DNA of 64,000 nt, taken from contig NZ_AP027364.1 of NCBI RefSeq assembly GCF_030295975.1, forward strand, positions 372,001-436,000, read 5' to 3'. Under the pieces are notes generated by a model. The model was given only the letters and a program-made list of their open reading frames with translations. It was not told the origin of the DNA and made no database searches. Position numbers and translations under genes: made by a program. Shown here piece by piece: positions 25,828 to 37,383 of this stretch. Each line of letters begins with the position of its first letter. Position 1 is the first letter of the stretch. Source of the stretch: Thalassotalea atypica (GTDB taxonomy: Bacteria; Pseudomonadota; Gammaproteobacteria; Enterobacterales; Alteromonadaceae).

Positions 25828-25950
25828 GTTAACAAAATGTTGCAACGAGGCTGGGTGTAAAAATAGTTAAATTTTATGTTGATAGCTTGTTGCTTAGCCG
25901 CAGGTCAAGTATTATCAAGCGTATTATCAGGATTATTCAATAACTATAAC

Positions 25951-26883
25951 ATGCAAATGCCTAATGATTTTGCCACGCTTACAGCAGCACTGGCTAAGCT
26001 TCCACATATCAAAATCGCGAAAGCGATCAGTGTTACTGCGTTAGTATATATCGCGTATGTGTGTGCGCAATTAACTTGGCAATTAAGCGCTGATGTTACA
26101 CCTATTAGCATTGGGCACTCTGGTGTTAAAGCCACTGATAAATTCAACACAAAGCCGGGAACTAATATTGATAAATTAGTGGCACTAAACTTGTTTGGTA
26201 AAGTCAATGTGTCGGCAAATGTCACAGAAACGGTTATGGTCGATGTACCTGAAACTAAACTGAACCTGACCTTATCTGGTGTCGTTGCATCTTCAGATCA
26301 AAGTAAAGCCGCAGCGATAATTGAGCGAAGTGGTGCTCAGGAAACTTATGGCATTGGAGATAAAATATCTAATACTCGAGCAACTTTAGAGCAAGTACAT
26401 GCAGATCGTGTGATCATCAAACAATCTGGCCGAATGGAAACTTTAATGCTTGATGGTTTTGATTATTATAAAGCAAAGCAACAACCTAAGCCCCGTCCTA
26501 AGCAGAATGTATCATCAAAAAACTCATCAGGCGCGAAGGTCATTGATCATCGCGAAAATGAGTCGTTTTTAACTCAAGCAAAACTATTTAAACAAGACGT
26601 GGTCAATAACCCTAGCAACATTGGGGCATATTTGAACATACGACCAGCACGCATAAATAATGAAGTGATCGGTTATAAACTATCGCCAGGAAAGAGCTCC
26701 GATTTTTTTAAAGCGTCAGGGCTAAAATCTGGTGATGTTGCAATACAAATGAATGGTCTCGACTTAACTGAAGGCAGTCAAGCACAACAAGCACTACAGT
26801 TATTAAAATCAGAACAAGAAATATCATTACTTGTAGACCGTAATGGAGAGTTAACCGAAATACTATTTAGTATTGAGAATTAG
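25951..26883 (+). CDS. gspC: type II secretion system protein GspC
   Basis: 310 residues from ATG 25951. An upstream in-frame ATG at 25876 would add 25 residues; neither has a good ribosome site. The chosen start gives the short cytoplasmic N-terminus usual for GspC. Domains: one transmembrane helix (about 27-43), a homology-region beta domain (about 95-150, LTLSGVVASSDQSKAAAII ... GDKI), a Lys/Pro-rich linker, and a C-terminal PDZ-like domain (about 225-310). GspC links the inner-membrane platform to the secretin. It is the first gene of gspC-N. Confidence 0.92.
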   Translation: MQMPNDFATLTAALAKLPHIKIAKAISVTALVYIAYVCAQLTWQLSADVTPISIGHSGVKATDKFNTKPGTNIDKLVALNLFGKVNVSANVTETVMVDVPETKLNLTLSGVVASSDQSKAAAIIERSGAQETYGIGDKISNTRATLEQVHADRVIIKQSGRMETLMLDGFDYYKAKQQPKPRPKQNVSSKNSSGAKVIDHRENESFLTQAKLFKQDVVNNPSNIGAYLNIRPARINNEVIGYKLSPGKSSDFFKASGLKSGDVAIQMNGLDLTEGSQAQQALQLLKSEQEISLLVDRNGELTEILFSIEN

Positions 26884-26900
26884 TCATGAGGAAGATATTG

Positions 26901-28976
26901 ATGCGCCTATTTCCGCGCAAGCCGTTTATCAAAAGCACACTGACACCCGTAATTACCATGGCGGCAGTGAGTTGTATTTCTATTTCAGCTATTGCTAGCG
27001 AATTTTCTCCCAATTTCAAAAATACGGATATGGGTGAGTTTGTTAATATTGTTGGGAAAAATTTAAAGAAAACTATGATTGTTGATCCCAATGTTAGGGG
27101 CAAGATCAATGTGCGTAGTTATGATGTGTTGACTGAAGAGCAATACTATCAGTTTTTCCTAAACGTACTCGAAGTATATGGCTTTGCAGCGGTTAAGATG
27201 GACAACAACATCATCAAAATTATTCGTAATAAAGATGCTAAAACGTCGTCAATTCCTGTAGTTGGTAATAATGCGACTATTGCGGGTGATGAAATGGTGA
27301 CCCGTGTTGTTGAAGTAAAAAATGTTACTGTGCGCGAATTAGTGCCTTTGCTTAGACAATTGTCTGATCAAGCAGGTGGTGGCAATGTTGTAAATTATGA
27401 CCCTGCCAATGTCATTATGCTGACCGGATCTGCGGCGGTAGTAAATCGGTTAGTCAATATCATTGAACGTGTCGACAAAGCGGGCGATCAAGACGTTCAA
27501 ATTATCAAGCTCAAATATGCTTCAGCCTCAGAAATGGTCAGAATCATTGAGGCAATGAATAAAACAACCCAAGGGAAACCAGGTACGCCGACCTTTCTTA
27601 TTCCAAAAATTGTTGCTGACGACAGAACTAATAGCGTGATTGTTAGCGGTGAAGGACAAGCCCGTGAACGAATTGCAAAGCTCGTTGCGCGCCTCGACAG
27701 TGAATTGGAAACCAACGGCAATACCCGAGTTTACTATCTAAAGTATTCGAAAGCGGAAGATTTAGTTGATGTCTTACAAGGGGTCAGCGAGTCGATTCAA
27801 GCAGAAGAGCAGGCAGGTACATCGACTAAAAGAGCCTCTAAAAAGCGCAACATCAGTATTGACGCCCATAACGACACCAATACGTTAGTGATAACTGCAC
27901 AGCCTGATATGTTACGTTCACTTGAAGCGGTCATTCGTAAGTTAGATATTCGCCGTGCACAAGTGTTAGTCGAAGCGATTATTGTTGAAGTTTTTGAAGG
28001 TGACGGCGCAAGTTTAGGGGTTCAGTGGTATCATGAAGACGCTGGTTTTACCCAGTTCACCAATGGCCCAGCACCCATCAGCAGTGTTGCTGCAGCAGCA
28101 CAGTTAGCTCAAGGTGAAAAAGGCACAACCGTAACCACAATTGATGGTAATGGTAACCCTGTGACCACAACCAACCCGGATACTGATGGTGACTATTCTG
28201 CGTTGGCAAGCGTTTTAGGTGGCGCCAGTGGCATGATGCTTGGCTTTGTTGATAACGATTGGGGTGCCATTATTCAAGCGGTAAATTCTGATACCAATTC
28301 AAACATTCTTTCAACACCGAGTATTACCACACTTGATAATGAAGAAGCTTACTTCATTGTGGGTCAGGAAATTCCGATCATAACGGGCTCAACCACAGGT
28401 AGCGATAACAGCAATCCATTCCAAACGGTTGATCGTCAAGAAGTGGGTATTAAGTTGAAAGTGACGCCGCAAGTTAATGAAGGCAGCGGTGTGCAATTAA
28501 CCATTGAACAAGAAGTTTCTTCTGTCAGTGGTACGACTGGAGTCGATATATCCATAAATAAACGTGAAATTAAAACCACGGTGATGGCGGATAATGGTGC
28601 AACCGTAATTTTAGGTGGCTTAATTGATGAAGACGTGCAAGAAAGTCAGCAAAAAGTCCCATTCTTAGGTGACCTACCTCTAATTGGTGCATTATTCCGT
28701 TCAACCAGCAACAGTGTACGAAAGCGTAATTTAATGGTCTTTTTACGTCCAACAATTATCCGAGATGGAAATCTGATGAATCAAGTGACTCGGGAAAAAT
28801 ATAACTATATTCGAGCCGATGAACTACGTAAGCAAGAGTTAGGTTTGAAGTTGCTGGACGATGAAAAGTTACCGTTATTGCCAGACTGGAATGAATCACT
28901 TGTGTTACCGCCATCTTTCGATGAGTACATGGAAGATAAAGAGCAAAACAAAACGCAGCAAGACAAAGAGCAGTAA
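26901..28976 (+). CDS. gspD: type II secretion secretin GspD
   Basis: 691 residues from ATG 26901, which has GAGGAAG at ideal spacing; an earlier ATG at 26886 has none. The signal peptide ends near SAIAS. The N0 domain begins [14 protein letters not shown], followed by N1-N3 ring domains. The secretin core includes [19 protein letters not shown] and the closing [15 protein letters not shown]. The C-terminal tail is short and Gln/Lys-rich. It forms the outer-membrane channel. Confidence 0.97.
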
Positions 28977-28981
28977 TCGCA

Positions 28982-30520
28982 ATGCAAGAACCTGTTGCTG
29001 AACATTCAGTATTAGAAAGTGATGATGTTGTCGCGCCGGAGGCTGTAACGCCCAATACCGTGCAGTTACCTTTTTCGTTTGCAAAACGATTTCTGGTCTT
29101 GCTAGAAAAAGACCAACATGGCTACATTTTACAATGTGCGGAACAAGTCACGCTTGAAACCATCGCCGAAATACGTCGCTTTTTGCAACAACCATTTCGT
29201 GTACAAAAAAATAGTACGTCAAAATTTGAACTGTTGTTAACGGAAGCCTACCAGCGTGACTCGTCCGAAGCGCAGCAAGTAATGGAAGACATCGGTAATG
29301 AAGTGGATTTATATTCACTAGCAGACGAAATGGTTGAAACCGAAGACTTACTTGAAAATGAAGATGACGCGCCGATTATTAAACTGATCAATGCTATGCT
29401 CAGCGAAGCAATTAAAGAAAGTGCTTCCGATATTCACATTGAAACCTTTGAGCAGGTATTACAAATTCGCTTTAGAATTGACGGTGTTTTACGAGAAGTA
29501 TTAAAGCCCAATCGTAAATTAGCTTCGTTACTGGTCTCGCGTATCAAAGTTATGGCAAAACTCGATATCGCCGAGAAGCGCATTCCGCAAGATGGCAGGA
29601 TCTCGCTTCGTATCGGTGGTCGTGCTGTAGATGTTCGTGTTTCAACCATGCCAACCGGCCATGGTGAGCGTGTGGTTTTACGTTTATTGGATAAAAATGC
29701 TGCACGCCTAGATTTGCAAGACTTGGGGATGACAGATAAAAACCGTGAGTTATTTTCCGCACTGATTGATAAGCCACACGGTATAATTCTGGTGACCGGT
29801 CCAACAGGCTCCGGTAAAAGTACTACCTTGTATGCTGGACTTACCCAAATTGATCATAAACAGCGCAATATCTTGACTGTAGAAGACCCCATTGAGTTTG
29901 CCATAGAGGGGATTGGTCAAACACAGGTTAATACCAAGGTTGATATGACATTTGCTCGTGGACTCAGAGCAATTTTACGTCAAGATCCAGACGTAGTGAT
30001 GGTGGGTGAAATTCGTGATCTAGAAACCGCACAAATTGGTGTACAAGCCAGTTTGACTGGGCATTTGGTATTATCAACTTTGCATACTAATACAGCAGCT
30101 GGCGCCATTACAAGAATGGAAGATATGGGTGTTGAGCCATTTTTATTATCTTCCAGTTTACTGGGCGTGTTAGCGCAACGTTTAGTGCGAACTTTATGCC
30201 CATATTGTAAAGAAAGCCACTTACCAAGTGATGACGAGCGTCAATTGTTGTCTCTTGATATCAGCAACAGCAGTCCAATTTATCGTGCCGTAGGGTGCAG
30301 TGAGTGTAATTTTAAAGGGTACAAAGGGCGTACCGGTATTCATGAGCTTATCGTTATTGATGATAAGGTCAGAGAGCTGATTCATGACGGCAAAGGTGAG
30401 CAGGCGATTGAAAAACTTGTTCGTCACAAGACTCCCAGTATCAGACAAGATGGTTTTGACAAAGTAATAGCAGGTTTCACAACGTTAGAAGAAGTGCTCC
30501 GTGTCACTCGTGAAGATTAA
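28982..30520 (+). CDS. gspE: type II secretion ATPase GspE
   Basis: 512 residues. The N-terminal domain (about 20-110) contacts GspL. The AAA-type core has Walker [13 protein letters not shown], an Asp box with [20 protein letters not shown], Walker B ([16 protein letters not shown]) and a His box ([15 protein letters not shown]). The zinc-binding tetracysteine CPYC ... CSEC sits near residues 395-435. It powers pseudopilus assembly from the cytoplasm. It follows gspD by 5 bp. Confidence 0.98.
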
Positions 30521-30531
30521 AGGAAAAGTCA

Positions 30532-31752
30532 GTGGCAGCATTTGATTTTCAAGCCGTAGATAGCAATGGAAAAACCCAAAAAGGGGTGATCGAAGGAGAT
30601 ACTCCTCGCCACGTGCGCAGTTTGTTGCGTGATCAAGGTTTAATGCCTGTTGAAGTTAATTTGAGCTTGAAAAAGCAAAAGCAGATCAGTGGAAAAAAAA
30701 TTGCTAGAGGTAATAAAATCTCAGCGGCAGATTTGGCATTAATCACTCGGCAACTAGCCACATTGGTAGAATCAGGCTTGCCGATTGAAGAGTCGCTGAT
30801 GGCGGTGGCAGAGCAGAGCGAGAAAAACAGCCAAAAAAGTATGATTATGGCAGTGCGGTCGAAAGTCACTGAAGGTTTTGGACTAGCTGAAAGTATGGCT
30901 GAATTTCCCGATGTATTTTCTCAGCTTTATCGCGCCATGGTCGCAGCAGGTGAAAAATCAGGTCACTTGGATAATGTACTCAATCGCTTGGCCGATTATA
31001 CCGAACAGCGACAACACATGCGCTCTCAACTAGTTCAGGCTTTGGTTTATCCTATTATTATGACCATAGTGGCGATTGCCGTTATCGTTATATTGTTAAC
31101 CTCTGTTGTTCCCAAAATTGTCGTGCAATTTGAACATATGGGACAAGGGCTACCTGATACCACATTAGCACTAATTGCCACCAGTGAATTTATGCAGAAC
31201 TATGGACTGGTTATTATGGTCTTATTAATGTTGAGTTCAGTTCTGTTTAAGCATTTAATGAATAAACCAAAGCTAAAATTTGGTTTTCATCAAAAATTAT
31301 TGGCAATGCCACTAGTAGGCAAAGTGGTCAGAGGCTTGAATACAGCTAGATTTGCTCGTACTTTGAGTATCCTGACGGCGAGTGCTGTGCCGTTGCTTGA
31401 AGCGATGAAAATTGCTGGTGAAGTGCTGGATAATTTATATATCAAACAAAAAGTGGCGGAATCTGCTGATATGGTGCGAGAAGGCTCAAGTTTACGGGTT
31501 GCGCTTGATCAAACCAAACTGTTCCCGCCCATGATGTTGCATATGATTGCCAGTGGCGAAAAAAGTGGTGAGCTTGAACAAATGCTCGGGCGCGCAGCGG
31601 ATAATCAAGATAATGAGTTTGAAGCGTTAATGAACATCTCAATCAAAGCTTTTGAACCAGCATTAATGGTTTCAATGGCCGTTGTTGTTTTATTTATTGT
31701 TTTAGCAATATTACAACCAATATTGCAGTTAAATACCTTAGTAGGAAGTTAG
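30532..31752 (+). CDS. gspF: type II secretion inner-membrane protein GspF
   Basis: 406 residues from a GTG start with AGGAAAA just upstream. Two T2SSF domains with the repeated pattern (LITRQLATLVESGLPIEESL and RTLSILTASAVPLLEAM) and three transmembrane helices are visible, with the last helix near the C-terminus. It is the polytopic platform protein contacted by GspE and GspL. Confidence 0.97.
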   Translation: MAAFDFQAVDSNGKTQKGVIEGDTPRHVRSLLRDQGLMPVEVNLSLKKQKQISGKKIARGNKISAADLALITRQLATLVESGLPIEESLMAVAEQSEKNSQKSMIMAVRSKVTEGFGLAESMAEFPDVFSQLYRAMVAAGEKSGHLDNVLNRLADYTEQRQHMRSQLVQALVYPIIMTIVAIAVIVILLTSVVPKIVVQFEHMGQGLPDTTLALIATSEFMQNYGLVIMVLLMLSSVLFKHLMNKPKLKFGFHQKLLAMPLVGKVVRGLNTARFARTLSILTASAVPLLEAMKIAGEVLDNLYIKQKVAESADMVREGSSLRVALDQTKLFPPMMLHMIASGEKSGELEQMLGRAADNQDNEFEALMNISIKAFEPALMVSMAVVVLFIVLAILQPILQLNTLVGS

Positions 31753-31754
31753 TT

Positions 31755-32192
31755 ATGACTATGTACAAAGCCAAGCATCAAGGCTTCACGTTAATTGAAA
31801 TCATGGTAGTGATCGTGATTTTAGGAATTCTAGGCAGCTTTGTTGTCCCCAACATAATGGGCAGCCAAGAAAGAGCTAATTTGCAAAAAGCCGTGTCTGA
31901 TATTAACGCACTTGAAGCATCTTTAAAGATGTACAAATTAGATAATTATAAATACCCAAGCACTGAGCAAGGCATTGAGTCGTTGGTCACAGCAACAGAC
32001 ATTGAGCCGTTACCTCGCCGCTTTCCTGAAGAAGGATATATAACGCGCTTACCAAAAGATCCGTGGGGCAATGATTATCAACTATTGAATCCGGGTGAAA
32101 ATGGCAAAATCGATGTTTTCACTATGGGCCCAGATGGCGAAGCAAGTACCGATGATGATATTGGTAATTGGAATTTAGCAGACTACCAGTAA
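31755..32192 (+). CDS. gspG: major pseudopilin GspG
   Basis: 145 residues. A short leader MTMYKAKHQG precedes the prepilin cleavage site G|FTLIEIMVVIVILGILG. The C-terminal calcium-binding half has the typical LPKDPWGNDYQL, GPDGEASTDDDIGNW segments. GspG is the main subunit of the pseudopilus and is needed in excess over the other subunits. A hairpin with a T-run directly follows the gene. Confidence 0.98.
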   Translation: MTMYKAKHQGFTLIEIMVVIVILGILGSFVVPNIMGSQERANLQKAVSDINALEASLKMYKLDNYKYPSTEQGIESLVTATDIEPLPRRFPEEGYITRLPKDPWGNDYQLLNPGENGKIDVFTMGPDGEASTDDDIGNWNLADYQ

Positions 32193-32210
32193 GTAAGCCG
32201 TTATCATACG

Positions 32211-32238
32211 AAGGCTAACGAAAATGTTGGCCTTTTTT
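32211..32238 (+). terminator. intra-operon Rho-independent terminator after gspG
   Basis: Stem AAGGCTAAC (32211-32219) / GTTGGCCTT (32226-32234), nine pairs with one G-U, 6-base loop, then a T-run TTTT CTTT. It lies 18 bp past gspG. Partial termination here would leave more gspC-G than gspH-N message. Confidence 0.75.
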
Positions 32239-32262
32239 CTTTCACTTAAGTGGTTTGCCAAT

Positions 32263-32880
32263 ATGTTCCGTCACTCGTCAGCTAAGAAAAAGCCATCACA
32301 ACAAGGTTTTACCTTGATTGAGATCATGCTGGTGCTGGTCTTAATTGGAGTGATGGTTTCACTAGTACAGTTTACTTTTCAAGGAAATAAATTAGAGCAA
32401 GACTTAAAAAAAGTAAGTAAACAATTTATAGGTTCGTTTACCATCGCGGCTGAATATGCCTTACTCAATAACCTAGAGTTAGGTGTCTTAGTTGAAGAAG
32501 ATCATTATCAATTTTTAGGATTTGATGGTGAAAACTGGCAAGCTATTTCAGACAGTGATTACTTGAAAGATTACCGATTGCCAGAGCATCTTAAAATGGC
32601 GGTCAACCTGGAAGGCTTGGAGGTAGACGAGCAAGCGTTATTCGATATCGAAACCTTTGTTAAAGACGATGAAGGGTTATTTAATAATGGTGAGAGCTTT
32701 AAAGACAGTGATGAAGAAAAGAAACTGATCCCACAAATATATATTTTATCTGGTGGCGAAATTACGCCATTTGAGTTGAACTTTATGCCAGCCGATGAGC
32801 TCGATGATGACTCGGATATTATGTATCAAGTCATTGGTCAATATAGTTTACCTTTGCAGCTACTAGGGCCAGAGTCTTAG
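32263..32880 (+). CDS. gspH: minor pseudopilin GspH
   Basis: 205 residues from ATG 32263. The upstream ATG at 32224 lies in the loop and stem of the terminator hairpin and would give an unusually long leader of about 28 residues before the cleavage site. The prepilin motif is QQG|FTLIEIMLVLVLIGVMVS. The globular part is acidic (runs of Asp and Glu at about 130-160). GspH sits near the tip of the pseudopilus. Its stop overlaps the gspI start (TAGTG). Confidence 0.92.
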   Translation: MFRHSSAKKKPSQQGFTLIEIMLVLVLIGVMVSLVQFTFQGNKLEQDLKKVSKQFIGSFTIAAEYALLNNLELGVLVEEDHYQFLGFDGENWQAISDSDYLKDYRLPEHLKMAVNLEGLEVDEQALFDIETFVKDDEGLFNNGESFKDSDEEKKLIPQIYILSGGEITPFELNFMPADELDDDSDIMYQVIGQYSLPLQLLGPES

Positions 32881-33308
32881 TGAATTGTAATCTATCTGCT
32901 CGGGCAACGTCTAAAGGCTTATGCAATCATAAAAAATCAAGCCCTGTATTTGGCTTTACCTTAATTGAGGTGATGCTGGCGATGGCCATTTTTGCTATCG
33001 CTGGTGTGGCGTTATTGGGCTCAGCTAAAAATAGTCTATCGAATTTTGGCCAATTGGAACAAAAAACGGTGGCTCAATGGGTAGCGTCTAATCAACTAGT
33101 AGCCGCCTCATTAGTCTCAGAATGGCCCCCTAAAAACAACCTCAAAGGAAAAGTAGAAATGTCGGGCGTGACGTGGTTTTGGCGTCAGAAAGTTGTACGT
33201 ACTACCGACAAAAACATGCGTCAAATCACCATGGAAATTCGCATAAATGAAAAAGATGAACAACCCATCACCAGCTTAGTCACTTTTATTGCGAAGAGCG
33301 GAAAATAG
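32880..33308 (+). CDS. gspI: minor pseudopilin GspI
   Basis: 142 residues from a GTG overlapping the gspH stop codon by one base. The cleavage motif is VFG|FTLIEVMLAMAIFAIAG, preceded by a leader of about 25 residues with several Lys and Arg. The body WVASNQLVAASLV ... VTWFWRQKV is typical of GspI. With GspJ and GspK it forms the pseudopilus tip complex. Confidence 0.95.
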   Translation: MNCNLSARATSKGLCNHKKSSPVFGFTLIEVMLAMAIFAIAGVALLGSAKNSLSNFGQLEQKTVAQWVASNQLVAASLVSEWPPKNNLKGKVEMSGVTWFWRQKVVRTTDKNMRQITMEIRINEKDEQPITSLVTFIAKSGK

Positions 33309-33309
33309 T

Positions 33310-33963
33310 ATGGTTCGCCAAGGCTTAGTTCATCACCGTCTAGGTTTTACGCTGATTGAGTTACTGGTTGCGATGGCGATATTTTCGGTGATCAGCTTGA
33401 CCAGTTTTACGATATTATCAACGGTGATCACCAGTGATGAAACGTTAACAGCTAAAAACCAACGATTAAACGCACTAGATAGTGCTTTTATCGTTATGGA
33501 GCGAGATTTCCTTCAACTGGCAAGACGCACCGTACGGCTAAACGGTGAAGCTCCAATATCGGGCTTTCTTCACTTAGATACTGATGGTATTTTTTCAGAA
33601 ACCTCAGGAGTCGCTTTTGTTCGTGCCGGTTGGACAAACCCTGGATTATTACTGCCGCGCAGTAACTTACAACCGGTGGTTTATCAATTAAAAGACAGTC
33701 AAGTACAGCGATTATTTTTCAATTTTGTAGACAATGTGGTTGGGGAAGAACCAAAAACTAGGGTATTGCTTGAAGAGGTTGATGAATTAGCCTTTGAATT
33801 TTATTATCAAAATAAATGGCAAGAAAGCCTCAGTAGCGAAAGCTTACCACAAGCAATTGCGGTGATTATTAGCTCCAAAGATTTTGGCGAGATCAGGCGT
33901 CAGTTTTTATTGCCTGCGAGCGCAGATGTTGAGCTTCAAGATGAAGGGAGTGGTAATGGTTAG
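33310..33963 (+). CDS. gspJ: minor pseudopilin GspJ
   Basis: 217 residues from ATG 33310, immediately after gspI; a TTG at 33289 would extend into gspI. The cleavage motif is RLG|FTLIELLVAMAIFSVIS. The globular domain contains AFIVMERDFLQLARR and a late YYQNKWQESL segment seen in GspJ proteins. It is part of the GspI-J-K tip. Confidence 0.95.
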   Translation: MVRQGLVHHRLGFTLIELLVAMAIFSVISLTSFTILSTVITSDETLTAKNQRLNALDSAFIVMERDFLQLARRTVRLNGEAPISGFLHLDTDGIFSETSGVAFVRAGWTNPGLLLPRSNLQPVVYQLKDSQVQRLFFNFVDNVVGEEPKTRVLLEEVDELAFEFYYQNKWQESLSSESLPQAIAVIISSKDFGEIRRQFLLPASADVELQDEGSGNG

Positions 33964-34966
33964 TCATTCAACTCACCGTCAACGGGGTATTGCTTTAATC
34001 ACTGTCATGCTTGTCGTGGCACTTGTGGCTATTGTAGCTACCGAAATGAGTGGTCGATTAATGCTGCAAATGCAACGCAGCGCCAATATTCAAATGAACC
34101 AACAAGCGTTTTGGTATGCCATGGGGGCCGAAGCGTTTGCTAAACGTGTGATCATCCAAGCACAAGAAGAAAATGAAAAAGTGACACACCGAGAGCAAAA
34201 TTGGGCGCAAGGGTATCAAAATTTTCCGGTCGATTTTGGTGAAATTTCTGGCGAAATAAAAGACTTACATGCCTGCTTAAACCTTAATGCATTACGTGAA
34301 GAAGGCAATGAAACCCCAAAAAATGGCAACGTCAAAAAAGCGCCAGCAAAGGCCGCACTTGAAGAGCTGATCGTCAACTTAAATATAGAAGGTGTTGGGC
34401 AATTTGAAGCAGAATACATGTCAGACAGTTTAAGCGATTGGCTAGACAGCAATGACGGGATTGCTAGCGCTGGAGGCGCTGAAGATAATGACTATGCGGC
34501 CAAAGAACACCCTTACCTCACCGCCAATCATTATTTGGCTAACGTTAATGAATTACGACTGGTCGAGCATTTTAGTGTACCAGTTATTAATGAACTTAAA
34601 GCCCATGTCTGTGTGATCCCGCAAAGCAATATTCATAAAATTAACATCAATACACTTGACGCCGAACATCCTCAATTACTGCAAAGCTTACTGGGTATTG
34701 ATGCCCAAAAAGCCGCGGATATATTAGCCGCCAGAGATGATAAAGGGTTTGAAACTATTGATGAATTTTTTAATTTACCTGAAGTCACATCGGTTAATTT
34801 CACCGATGATCAAAAACAACAGTTTGTAGTTGATAGTGAATATTTTAAACTGGTAGCCAATACACGCTTTAGTGATAGCTATTTTAGCCTTAATACCACG
34901 CTCAAAGTGGTGAGTAACAATGAAGTGGCTGTACTCAGTCGCACGATAGGACGTTTCAATGAGTGA
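33956..34966 (+). CDS. gspK: minor pseudopilin GspK
   Basis: 336 residues from ATG 33956, overlapping gspJ by 8 bp with GGGAG upstream. The cleavage motif is RQRG|IALITVMLVVALVAIVA; like other GspK proteins it has no Glu5. The large periplasmic part has the inserted helical domain (about 100-300) including NINTLDAEHPQLL, a helix-hairpin-helix-like element. It caps the pseudopilus tip. Confidence 0.95.
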   Translation: MVSHSTHRQRGIALITVMLVVALVAIVATEMSGRLMLQMQRSANIQMNQQAFWYAMGAEAFAKRVIIQAQEENEKVTHREQNWAQGYQNFPVDFGEISGEIKDLHACLNLNALREEGNETPKNGNVKKAPAKAALEELIVNLNIEGVGQFEAEYMSDSLSDWLDSNDGIASAGGAEDNDYAAKEHPYLTANHYLANVNELRLVEHFSVPVINELKAHVCVIPQSNIHKININTLDAEHPQLLQSLLGIDAQKAADILAARDDKGFETIDEFFNLPEVTSVNFTDDQKQQFVVDSEYFKLVANTRFSDSYFSLNTTLKVVSNNEVAVLSRTIGRFNE

Positions 34967-36173
34967 AGTGTTATATATTCGACTCAATAGCCACGCGGAT
35001 GCGCCCATCTGGTGGTTAATTTGGTCAAATGTCGAAAGAGAAATCATCGCCAGCGGAGAGTTGTTATCAGCTGAACAGCTTTCAACACTGTCAGATAAGG
35101 CGGATCACCGCAAAGTGGTTGTGATTGTACCGAGCCAAGACGTTACTTTGAAGTCAGTAAATGTGCCAGGTAAATCAAGTCGTGCACACAAAGCTGTAGT
35201 CCCCTACATGCTTGAGGATGAACTGACCGAAGACGTTGATGAGTTGTTTTTTGCCTATAGCAACACTAAAATTGCTGATGAAGATAATAATTGTTTTATC
35301 GCAGTGGTTAAACGCCAATTGTTTAGAGATTGGCTACAGTGCCTACAAGCTGCCAATATTAAGTGTCAGCTAATGATACCTGAAATTCTGGCGATGCCAT
35401 TAGAAGCTGACGGATGGAGTGTCGCCCAAGTTGATGAGCAAATTATTGTGCGTCAAGGTCAGTGGCGTGGCATGACACTTGATACGAGTTTGTGGACGTT
35501 TGCTTGTGAGCAGTGGTTAATGGAAGATGGCACTCCTAGTATCGCTAGCTATACCACCCTACCGAACACTCCCGAAGGCTTAGTTGTTGAACAAAAGCCC
35601 CAGGAAATGCTACTCACTTTAATTGCTCAGTCAGGGCAATCGCAGTTCAACTTGCTACAAGGTGAATTTTCAGTAAAAGATGATCGTTCGCCCATTGTTA
35701 AAACATGGGCTATGGCGGCAGGCATTTGTTTGGTAGCGCTCTTGCTGTCGTTGGGCCAAAAAGGCGCGGCGTTATTTCAGCTAAAAGCCCAACAAGCCCA
35801 AATTGAACAGCAAATTATTGATACTTATATCGGGGCTTTTCCAGAGACCAAACGAGTGCGGGTTTCAACAATAAGATCACAACTTAAAAGGAAGATGTCT
35901 GGTATCGGCAGTGGCGTAAATGAGCAGAGCTTCTTGATGTTGCTATCTAAATTAGGAAATGCTTATACGCAGGTGCCTACCTTTACCACAACGTCAATAA
36001 AGTTTGACAGTAAGCGTGGCGAAATCCGATTAACGGCGAGTGCACGTGATTATCAAGCTTTCGATAAGTTTAAAGGGGAGCTTGAAAAAATGAACTTGCT
36101 TGTCACTCAAGGTGCACAAAACAATCAAGGTGATTTAGTGACAGGATCATTGAGTATTAAGGAGCGTTCATGA
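34959..36173 (+). CDS. gspL: type II secretion protein GspL
   Basis: 404 residues. The cytoplasmic actin-like domain (about 1-245) binds GspE. One transmembrane helix (about 250-270, TWAMAAGICLVALLLSLG) leads to a periplasmic ferredoxin-like domain. It overlaps gspK by 8 bp and gspM by 4 bp, consistent with coupled translation. Confidence 0.95.
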   Translation: MSEVLYIRLNSHADAPIWWLIWSNVEREIIASGELLSAEQLSTLSDKADHRKVVVIVPSQDVTLKSVNVPGKSSRAHKAVVPYMLEDELTEDVDELFFAYSNTKIADEDNNCFIAVVKRQLFRDWLQCLQAANIKCQLMIPEILAMPLEADGWSVAQVDEQIIVRQGQWRGMTLDTSLWTFACEQWLMEDGTPSIASYTTLPNTPEGLVVEQKPQEMLLTLIAQSGQSQFNLLQGEFSVKDDRSPIVKTWAMAAGICLVALLLSLGQKGAALFQLKAQQAQIEQQIIDTYIGAFPETKRVRVSTIRSQLKRKMSGIGSGVNEQSFLMLLSKLGNAYTQVPTFTTTSIKFDSKRGEIRLTASARDYQAFDKFKGELEKMNLLVTQGAQNNQGDLVTGSLSIKERS

Positions 36174-36640
36174 AACAGTGGTGGACACAACTTGCAGAAA
36201 AAGAACAACGATTACTGATGTTGATGTCAGTCTTTGTTGTGTGCTTTCTATTCTATCATTTATTATGGCAGCCAGTGAATGAGGGGCTTGATAAAGAAAG
36301 TAAAAAGTTAGCACGACATCAAGCATTGCTCAGTTATGTTGAGCAACATACTTCTCAATACCAGGCGGCCTTGCGCAGTGGCGGCAACAGTAAAGCTACG
36401 GGTAGCTTGTCGAGCATCGTTAACCGAGTCGCAAAAGCTCATCAGATCAACATTAGCCGCGTTCAACCACAAGGGGATGATATTCAAGTATGGATCGAAC
36501 AAGTCGCCTTTAATCAGTTGTTGTTGTGGTTGGCGGATCTGACTGAAAAGAATGGTTTGCAGGTTAAAACAATAGACATCAGTGAAGGGAATGCAGAAGG
36601 GGCAGTCAACATTCGTCGCCTTCAGTTAGGAAAAATGTAA
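36170..36640 (+). CDS. gspM: type II secretion protein GspM
   Basis: 156 residues. A short cytoplasmic segment, one transmembrane helix (about 15-35) and a periplasmic domain with the final ISRVQPQGDDIQVWIEQVAFNQLLLWL pattern common in GspM. It stabilises GspL in the platform. Its ATG overlaps the gspL stop (ATGA). Confidence 0.94.
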   Translation: MKQWWTQLAEKEQRLLMLMSVFVVCFLFYHLLWQPVNEGLDKESKKLARHQALLSYVEQHTSQYQAALRSGGNSKATGSLSSIVNRVAKAHQINISRVQPQGDDIQVWIEQVAFNQLLLWLADLTEKNGLQVKTIDISEGNAEGAVNIRRLQLGKM

Positions 36641-37383
36641 TGAAAAAAGTGGTCACCGCAGTCGCAGTCTTTATTGCGGTTTATACGGTTTTCTTGGTTG
36701 TAAATGCGCCGGCATCAATATTAACTTACGGGGCTAAACTCCCTAAAAATATTGCGCTGCATAACTTTTCAGGCACACTTTGGCAGTCACATGTGGAACG
36801 TGTGGATGTTGATAAATTCAGCGTATTTGATGTCAATGCACAGTTGAGCCCTTTATCACTTGCACTTCTTACTCCAACAGTGAAGGTCACATTTGGTGGT
36901 GGATTGTATGAAGGACCTCAAGGGCAAGGCGTTATATCAACTGATGGAGAGCGCATTGATATTATAGGCGCTGAACTAGAAGTGGCGGCAAATACCATCG
37001 CTCCCTTTATCAACTCACCCATTCCCGTACAAGCGTTTGGGCTAATCAGAGCCAATATCGAACGATTTGATTATCAAGCAGGTCAGTGTAGCAATGCCAG
37101 TGGCCATGTTAAGTGGCTAAATGCAGCACTTTCTGCAATGGGCGAACAAGTAGAGCTTGGCCAGTTTGATGCGGAACTTGCTTGTGTCGATAACTTGTTG
37201 ACGTTGAACATTCAACCAACGAATAAACTTGGTTTGTCTTTTTCTGGTCAACTCATGAAAAACGGTCGTTTATCCGGCAGTGGGTTTATCAAGCCTGGAG
37301 CTGGTTTCCCCAGCAAGTTGCGTGAGTTATTGTCATTTTTGGGTAAACCAGACCAGCAAGGTCGCTATCGCATTCACATATAG
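36640..37383 (+). CDS. gspN: type II secretion protein GspN
   Basis: 247 residues. An N-terminal membrane helix is followed by a beta-rich periplasmic body with LSGTLWQS-like (NFSGTLWQSHVERVDV) and LSPLSLALLTPTVKVTFGG, the GspN signature. GspN is a non-essential part of some secretion systems. It is the last gene of the operon. gspO (prepilin peptidase) and gspAB are absent here, so the peptidase must come from another locus such as pilD. Confidence 0.93.
   Translation: MKKVVTAVAVFIAVYTVFLVVNAPASILTYGAKLPKNIALHNFSGTLWQSHVERVDVDKFSVFDVNAQLSPLSLALLTPTVKVTFGGGLYEGPQGQGVISTDGERIDIIGAELEVAANTIAPFINSPIPVQAFGLIRANIERFDYQAGQCSNASGHVKWLNAALSAMGEQVELGQFDAELACVDNLLTLNIQPTNKLGLSFSGQLMKNGRLSGSGFIKPGAGFPSKLRELLSFLGKPDQQGRYRIHI

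Follow-up and report, generated by a model that had tools for sequence, protein, structure and literature searches.

A hairpin with a T-run directly downstream of gspG in Thalassotalea atypica as a candidate 3'-end element and partial terminator within the gsp operon

The 64,000-nt stretch of Thalassotalea atypica DNA analysed here (the window, positions 372001-436000 of its contig; the host genome comprises 4.39 Mb) contains a type II secretion operon with a hairpin between gspG, the gene for the major pseudopilin, and gspH, the gene for a minor pseudopilin. The features concerned are:

25876..37383, + strand, gspC-gspN operon around the hairpin (Pfam for F, G, H and I)
31755..32192, + strand, gspG, major pseudopilin (Pfam T2SSG 3.9e-34, N_methyl)
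32210..32214, + strand, GAAGG, Shine-Dalgarno-like, inside the 5' arm and 9 nt before ATG 32224
32211..32234, + strand, hairpin (5' arm 32211-32219, loop 32220-32225, 3' arm 32226-32234)
32224..32226, + strand, upstream in-frame ATG, overlapping the loop and, by its last base, the 3' arm
32233..32242, + strand, T-run TTTTTTCTTT, of which the first two T are paired within the stem
32263..32880, + strand, gspH, minor pseudopilin (N_methyl 3e-07; start ATG 32263 supported)

Pfam confirms GspF, GspG and GspI and, for GspH, the prepilin N-terminus; the other gene names follow the usual gene order of gsp operons. The closest named matches of GspG are from Colwellia and Pseudocolwellia, same-species records possibly having been left out. 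The operon was compared across 161 loci by tblastn with the twelve proteins of the window.

The hairpin in the gspG-gspH gap is real. Its arms, AAGGCTAAC and GTTGGCCTT, form nine pairs, one of which is T-G (G-U in RNA), and an extra G-T pair lengthens it to 32210-32235, the energy being -11.5 kcal/mol for 32211-32234 and -12.8 kcal/mol for 32210-32235. The T-run is made up of TTTTTT at 32233-32238, a C and TTT, and has a tail score (nT) of 4.16. The initial annotation had described a nine-pair stem with a T-run 18 nt past gspG (stop codon 32190-32192), and the sequence bears this out: an equally good T-tailed hairpin occurs in 3 of 2000 dinucleotide shuffles of the 70-nt gap, and any T-tailed hairpin at -5 or better in 230 of 2000. 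A scan of both strands over 18 kb gave 13 terminator-like sites, a number not above that in shuffles (15.2, sd 3.7), and this hairpin ranks best among them. Five stem boundaries were scored by the d'Aubenton-Carafa terminator measure, three of them coming out positive and two negative, with a top value of 18.9 for 32213-32232 and lower or negative values for the other boundaries. Known RNA families were ruled out, since the covariance models of Rfam 15 gave no match in 31700-33000 up to E = 1. With a stem of nine to ten pairs, four of them G-C, a loop of six, the energies given above and a U-tract that adjoins the stem, the hairpin looks, as judged from its sequence, like a weak-to-moderate intrinsic terminator.

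The initial annotation had also placed ATG 32224 within the hairpin and the start of gspH at 32263, and both placements agree with our data. Translation from ATG 32224 would give GspH a 27-residue leader, translation from ATG 32263 the leader MFRHSSAKKKPSQQG, which is similar in length to the MFK, MFN, MLN or MQR leaders of the relatives. An MF/ML leader is found in six of the seven genus members, and four of the seven lack any in-frame start codon ahead of the MF/ML/MQ start. On account of the 27-residue leader and these four members, ATG 32224 was rejected as an unlikely start of gspH. The GAAGG at 32210..32214 is probably incidental. The ribosome-binding site of gspH is weak across the family, with a median predicted 16S rRNA pairing of -1.5 at 79 loci; gspG and gspI, likewise at 79 loci, have medians of -4.3 and -4.5, and gspJ has -3.7. 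The gspH site in the window reaches -3.4. Translation alone may hold GspH down.

Within the genus, seven genomes including that of the window were compared, among which G005/G006 and G002/G004 are near-duplicates, leaving five clearly distinct sequences. All seven have a hairpin in the gspG-gspH gap, each beating the shuffles of its own gap (p 0.005-0.03; 200 shuffles). The hairpin begins 13-19 nt past the gspG stop in every genome, whereas the distance from its end to the gspH ATG varies (9, 28, 39, 40, 40, 53 and 53 nt, the 28 nt being those of the window). The hairpin therefore belongs to the 3' end of gspG, and its spacing points to a putative role there and not at the start of gspH. The T-run is clear in two of the seven (the window and G001), short in two (G005 and G006, where it reads TTTTCACTTT and lies under the strict T-tail filter used for the family scans) and absent in three (G002, G003 and G004). 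Hence a hairpin and a T-run conserved together, as would characterise a terminator, are not found, the hairpin being present in seven of seven genomes and a clear T-run in two, and the three genomes that keep the hairpin without a T-run argue against a terminator as its shared function.

By sequence, the genus hairpins fall into two groups, window/G001/G005/G006 and G002/G004/G003. MAFFT misplaced the 5' arms because the loop lengths differ; the arms were hence set by hand, and the resulting pair table depends on the chosen register. Of eight tabulated pairs in the window group, both partners have changed in three and a single partner in one, three remain as they were and one outer pair is lost; the corresponding figures for the nine pairs of the G002/G004/G003 group are one, four, four and none. 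The three sequences of this latter group are too few for the shuffle control to discriminate, as 172 of 500 shuffles reach the observed pair-count score, though the pairing falls from 100 per cent to 25-41 per cent when the partner strand is slid. Within 60 nt past the stop codon, all five full genus operons have a hairpin of at least -10 strength after gspG; for the remaining ten gsp genes this is the case at 4 of 50 stops. By the same measure the family sample gives 17/81 for gspG, 23/81 for gspD and 23/80 for gspJ, and the enrichment is therefore a property of the genus and not of the family.

How unusual such a hairpin is was assessed in 464 kb of the same genome, consisting of the window and twenty sampled stretches. 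With an energy cut-off of -10.5, T-tailed hairpins occur in 1 of the 40 same-strand gaps that measure 20-50 nt, in 5 of the 33 that measure 50-100 nt and in 10 of the 49 that measure 100-200 nt, the gsp hairpin itself being missing from this count because the simple gene caller began gspH at 32224. Such hairpins are thus infrequent between same-strand genes without being rare, and in most cases they probably mark operon ends. The candidate terminators of this sample begin at similar distances from their stop codons, and their energies range from -11.2 to -22.3, which puts the gspG stem at the weak end. Near-identical stems (AAAGCCAAC/GTTGGCTTT) with T-runs occur just past gene ends at two other places in the genome, so that the window hairpin is similar to probable terminators at other sites of the genome. 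A dispersed repeat was considered and rejected, as the hairpin has one perfect site in the genome; near-matches, with two to three mismatches or more, lie at five other places on either strand. Likewise, each genus hairpin tested, i.e. all except that of G003, has one perfect site in its own genome.

Outside the genus the hairpin is mostly missing. The scan of the family and named loci covered gaps of at least 15 nt (48 of 80 family and 47 of 77 named G-H gaps), gaps of more than 400 or less than -100 nt being dropped, and the two locus sets overlap in part (e.g. L115 and L140). Of the 80 family loci with a G-H pair, five have a T-tailed hairpin in the gap between the two genes, namely the window, G001 and three loci in two other genera; all other junctions of the same loci together have three (one F-G, two M-N). 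In the named loci, where it is found in 2 of 77, the G-H junction is not prominent (F-G 4/80, E-F 3/78, M-N 3/73, C-D 2/75), and among 38 class loci (the best 40 of 69 class matches outside the family, minus two without the gspH motif) it is found in none. The own-gap shuffle test, restricted to the 36 loci with gaps of 30-200 nt, detected a significant G-H hairpin (p <= 0.05) in 4 of the 29 such loci outside the genus. On these counts a general gsp attenuator was rejected, and as sequence comparison has it the feature is lineage-specific. Since most gsp operons have no such hairpin, the excess of GspG must generally be reached otherwise, and partial termination cannot set the pseudopilin ratio in type II secretion operons generally. 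Conservation in related gsp operons thus stands for the genus and fails beyond it.

Other lineages show different structures at this junction. In genus g36, T-tailed G-H hairpins of unrelated sequence are present in three species (L098, L134 and L240), two with a strict T-tail and that of L240 weaker, and absent in a fourth (L241). Genus g38, which is Colwellia-like, has in its G-H gap a palindromic element roughly 100 nt long (L301/G082, L303/G043, L305/G137) that is dispersed in the genomes, ends near GCTGTAA/TTACAGC and looks like a MITE- or REP-type repeat; it has 23 matches in G082, 14 in G043, 31 in G137, 8 in G112 and none in the genome of the window. Mobile palindromic repeats can thus also supply G-H gap hairpins. 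The G-H gap of L245, 329 nt long, contains repeated pieces such as CGTCGCTTACCGCGACAAAA, which suggests a repeat insertion after gspG. Strong G-H hairpins without a T-run (-16 to -27) occur in Aeromonas (L166, L168, L169, L174) and Pseudoalteromonas (L188, L201); their loops contain or adjoin an in-frame gspH start codon, and translational control by these hairpins is possible. Additionally, in 4 of 14 Aeromonas loci (L160, L161, L164, L171) exeG and exeH are separated by a short ORF that copies about 40 residues of the prepilin N-terminus of ExeH before it ends; it is a partial duplication of the exeH start.

We propose, as a reading with even prospects, that the hairpin serves gspG as a 3'-end element and also terminates transcription in part, so that gspG mRNA would exceed gspH-N mRNA. 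The transcript hairpin would form just past a ribosome stopping at gspG, the T-run of T. atypica would let part of the RNA polymerases release, and the same hairpin would keep 3' exonucleases away from the gspC-G mRNA end so formed, or formed by processing. The outcome would be more gspG mRNA than gspH-N mRNA. We infer that RNA 3' ends would lie at the hairpin, that read-through would be considerable and that selection would act on how much GspG is made relative to the minor pseudopilins. The genes after gspG are thought to be needed, and a fully efficient terminator would shut them off. As no + strand promoter-like site is listed between the hairpin and gspH, termination could only be partial, and partial termination in T. 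atypica is plausible. The initial annotation had proposed that partial termination sets the GspG ratio; for the window this is favoured by the terminator features, the T-tailed analogues in the same genome and the tie to the gspG stop, but it does not extend to gsp operons in general, and the T-run is absent from three of the seven genus genomes.

Other readings of the locus have to be weighed against this one. The transcript might be cut by an endonuclease downstream of gspG and the hairpin might block 3' exonucleases without any termination, in which case gspG mRNA would outlive gspH-N mRNA, an explanation that is possible, if somewhat doubtful. Its precedent is E. coli, where such protection is common: out of 34 upstream-stabilised operon segments, 26 have their end directly behind a stable hairpin without a U-tract, and these hairpins are conserved between related species (PMC5927463). 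It also gains from the genus, in which the gspG hairpin is stable, lies shortly after the gene and exceeds chance in seven of seven genomes, three of which have no U-tract. Against it stand the U-tract of the window, with its good tail score, and the resemblance of the same-genome analogues to terminators. The T-run of the window thus favours partial termination, whereas the relatives without one favour mRNA protection, and for the relatives protection of gspG mRNA may be an explanation at least as good as partial termination. It is highly improbable that the operon truly ends here, with gspC-G and gspH-N as separate units and a promoter of its own for gspH: a terminator-like site does follow gspG, but no + strand promoter-like site was listed between 31858 and 33779, and merely 28 nt separate the hairpin from the gspH ATG.

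A translational device, in which the hairpin hides GAAGG and ATG 32224 and couples translation of gspH to that of gspG, would account for the position of GAAGG in the 5' arm and of the ATG in the loop, for the weak gspH ribosome-binding sites of the family and for the several Aeromonas loci whose hairpin loops contain a gspH start codon. We consider it quite improbable, however, as the gspH starts of the relatives lie 9-53 nt past the hairpin, four of seven genus members have no upstream in-frame start and the leader from 32224 is unusually long and hydrophobic. That the G-H gap simply tolerates insertions and the hairpin is a leftover without a role agrees with this gap being among the longest of the operon, with the dispersed repeat in the Colwellia relatives and with the many relatives that have no hairpin; it is nevertheless improbable, because all seven genus genomes keep the hairpin, with paired changes, and no genus hairpin tested is a close repeat.

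The papA gene codes for a major pilin. The papBA/papA mRNA resembles the proposed gspG 3'-end element in that a major pilin mRNA ends at an RNase-resistant terminator structure (PMC5927463); it differs in that papBA belongs to chaperone-usher pili, not to a type II pseudopilus, and in that RNase E processes papB. Protective hairpins of the malEFG type are likewise stable, located just past a highly needed gene and kept in close relatives, and three of the seven genus genomes share with them the absence of a U-tract, whereas the window hairpin has a U-tract (PMC5927463). Intrinsic termination inside operons, which sets relative expression, was demonstrated at the ioTTS of Methanococcus maripaludis by RNA 3'-end mapping and mutants (PMC10450193). 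The gspG site is like them in lying between genes of one operon with the upstream gene expected to be more abundant, and unlike these archaeal sites in that its T-run is not present in all relatives and the evidence for it is sequence. At the terminator that precedes the PI-2b pilus operon of Streptococcus agalactiae, with a predicted -12.8 kcal/mol, a read-through hairpin sets downstream expression, but it sits between two operons and not inside one past the gene of the major subunit (PMC5249243). Our search of open-access literature, by titles and abstract openings, found no report of a gspG-gspH terminator or hairpin, which is not proof of absence. The hairpin is a known kind of device at a newly noticed place.

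To our knowledge, it has seldom been asked at the level of RNA how a single operon yields far more GspG than GspH-K and platform proteins. A gspG 3'-end hairpin that is kept through sequence change makes a simple test possible within one genus, and that it is missing elsewhere implies that no single RNA signal sets the GspG excess across type II secretion operons. The G-H junction might be a recurrent site for 3'-end hairpins in the family, either unrelated ones (as in this genus, g36 and g49) or those of an inserted mobile palindromic repeat (g38), the pseudopilin step being set by lineage-specific RNA ends. We regard this wider reading as rather unlikely; if it holds, the subunit ratio of a secretion machine would be tuned by fast-turning-over RNA ends and not by one conserved signal.
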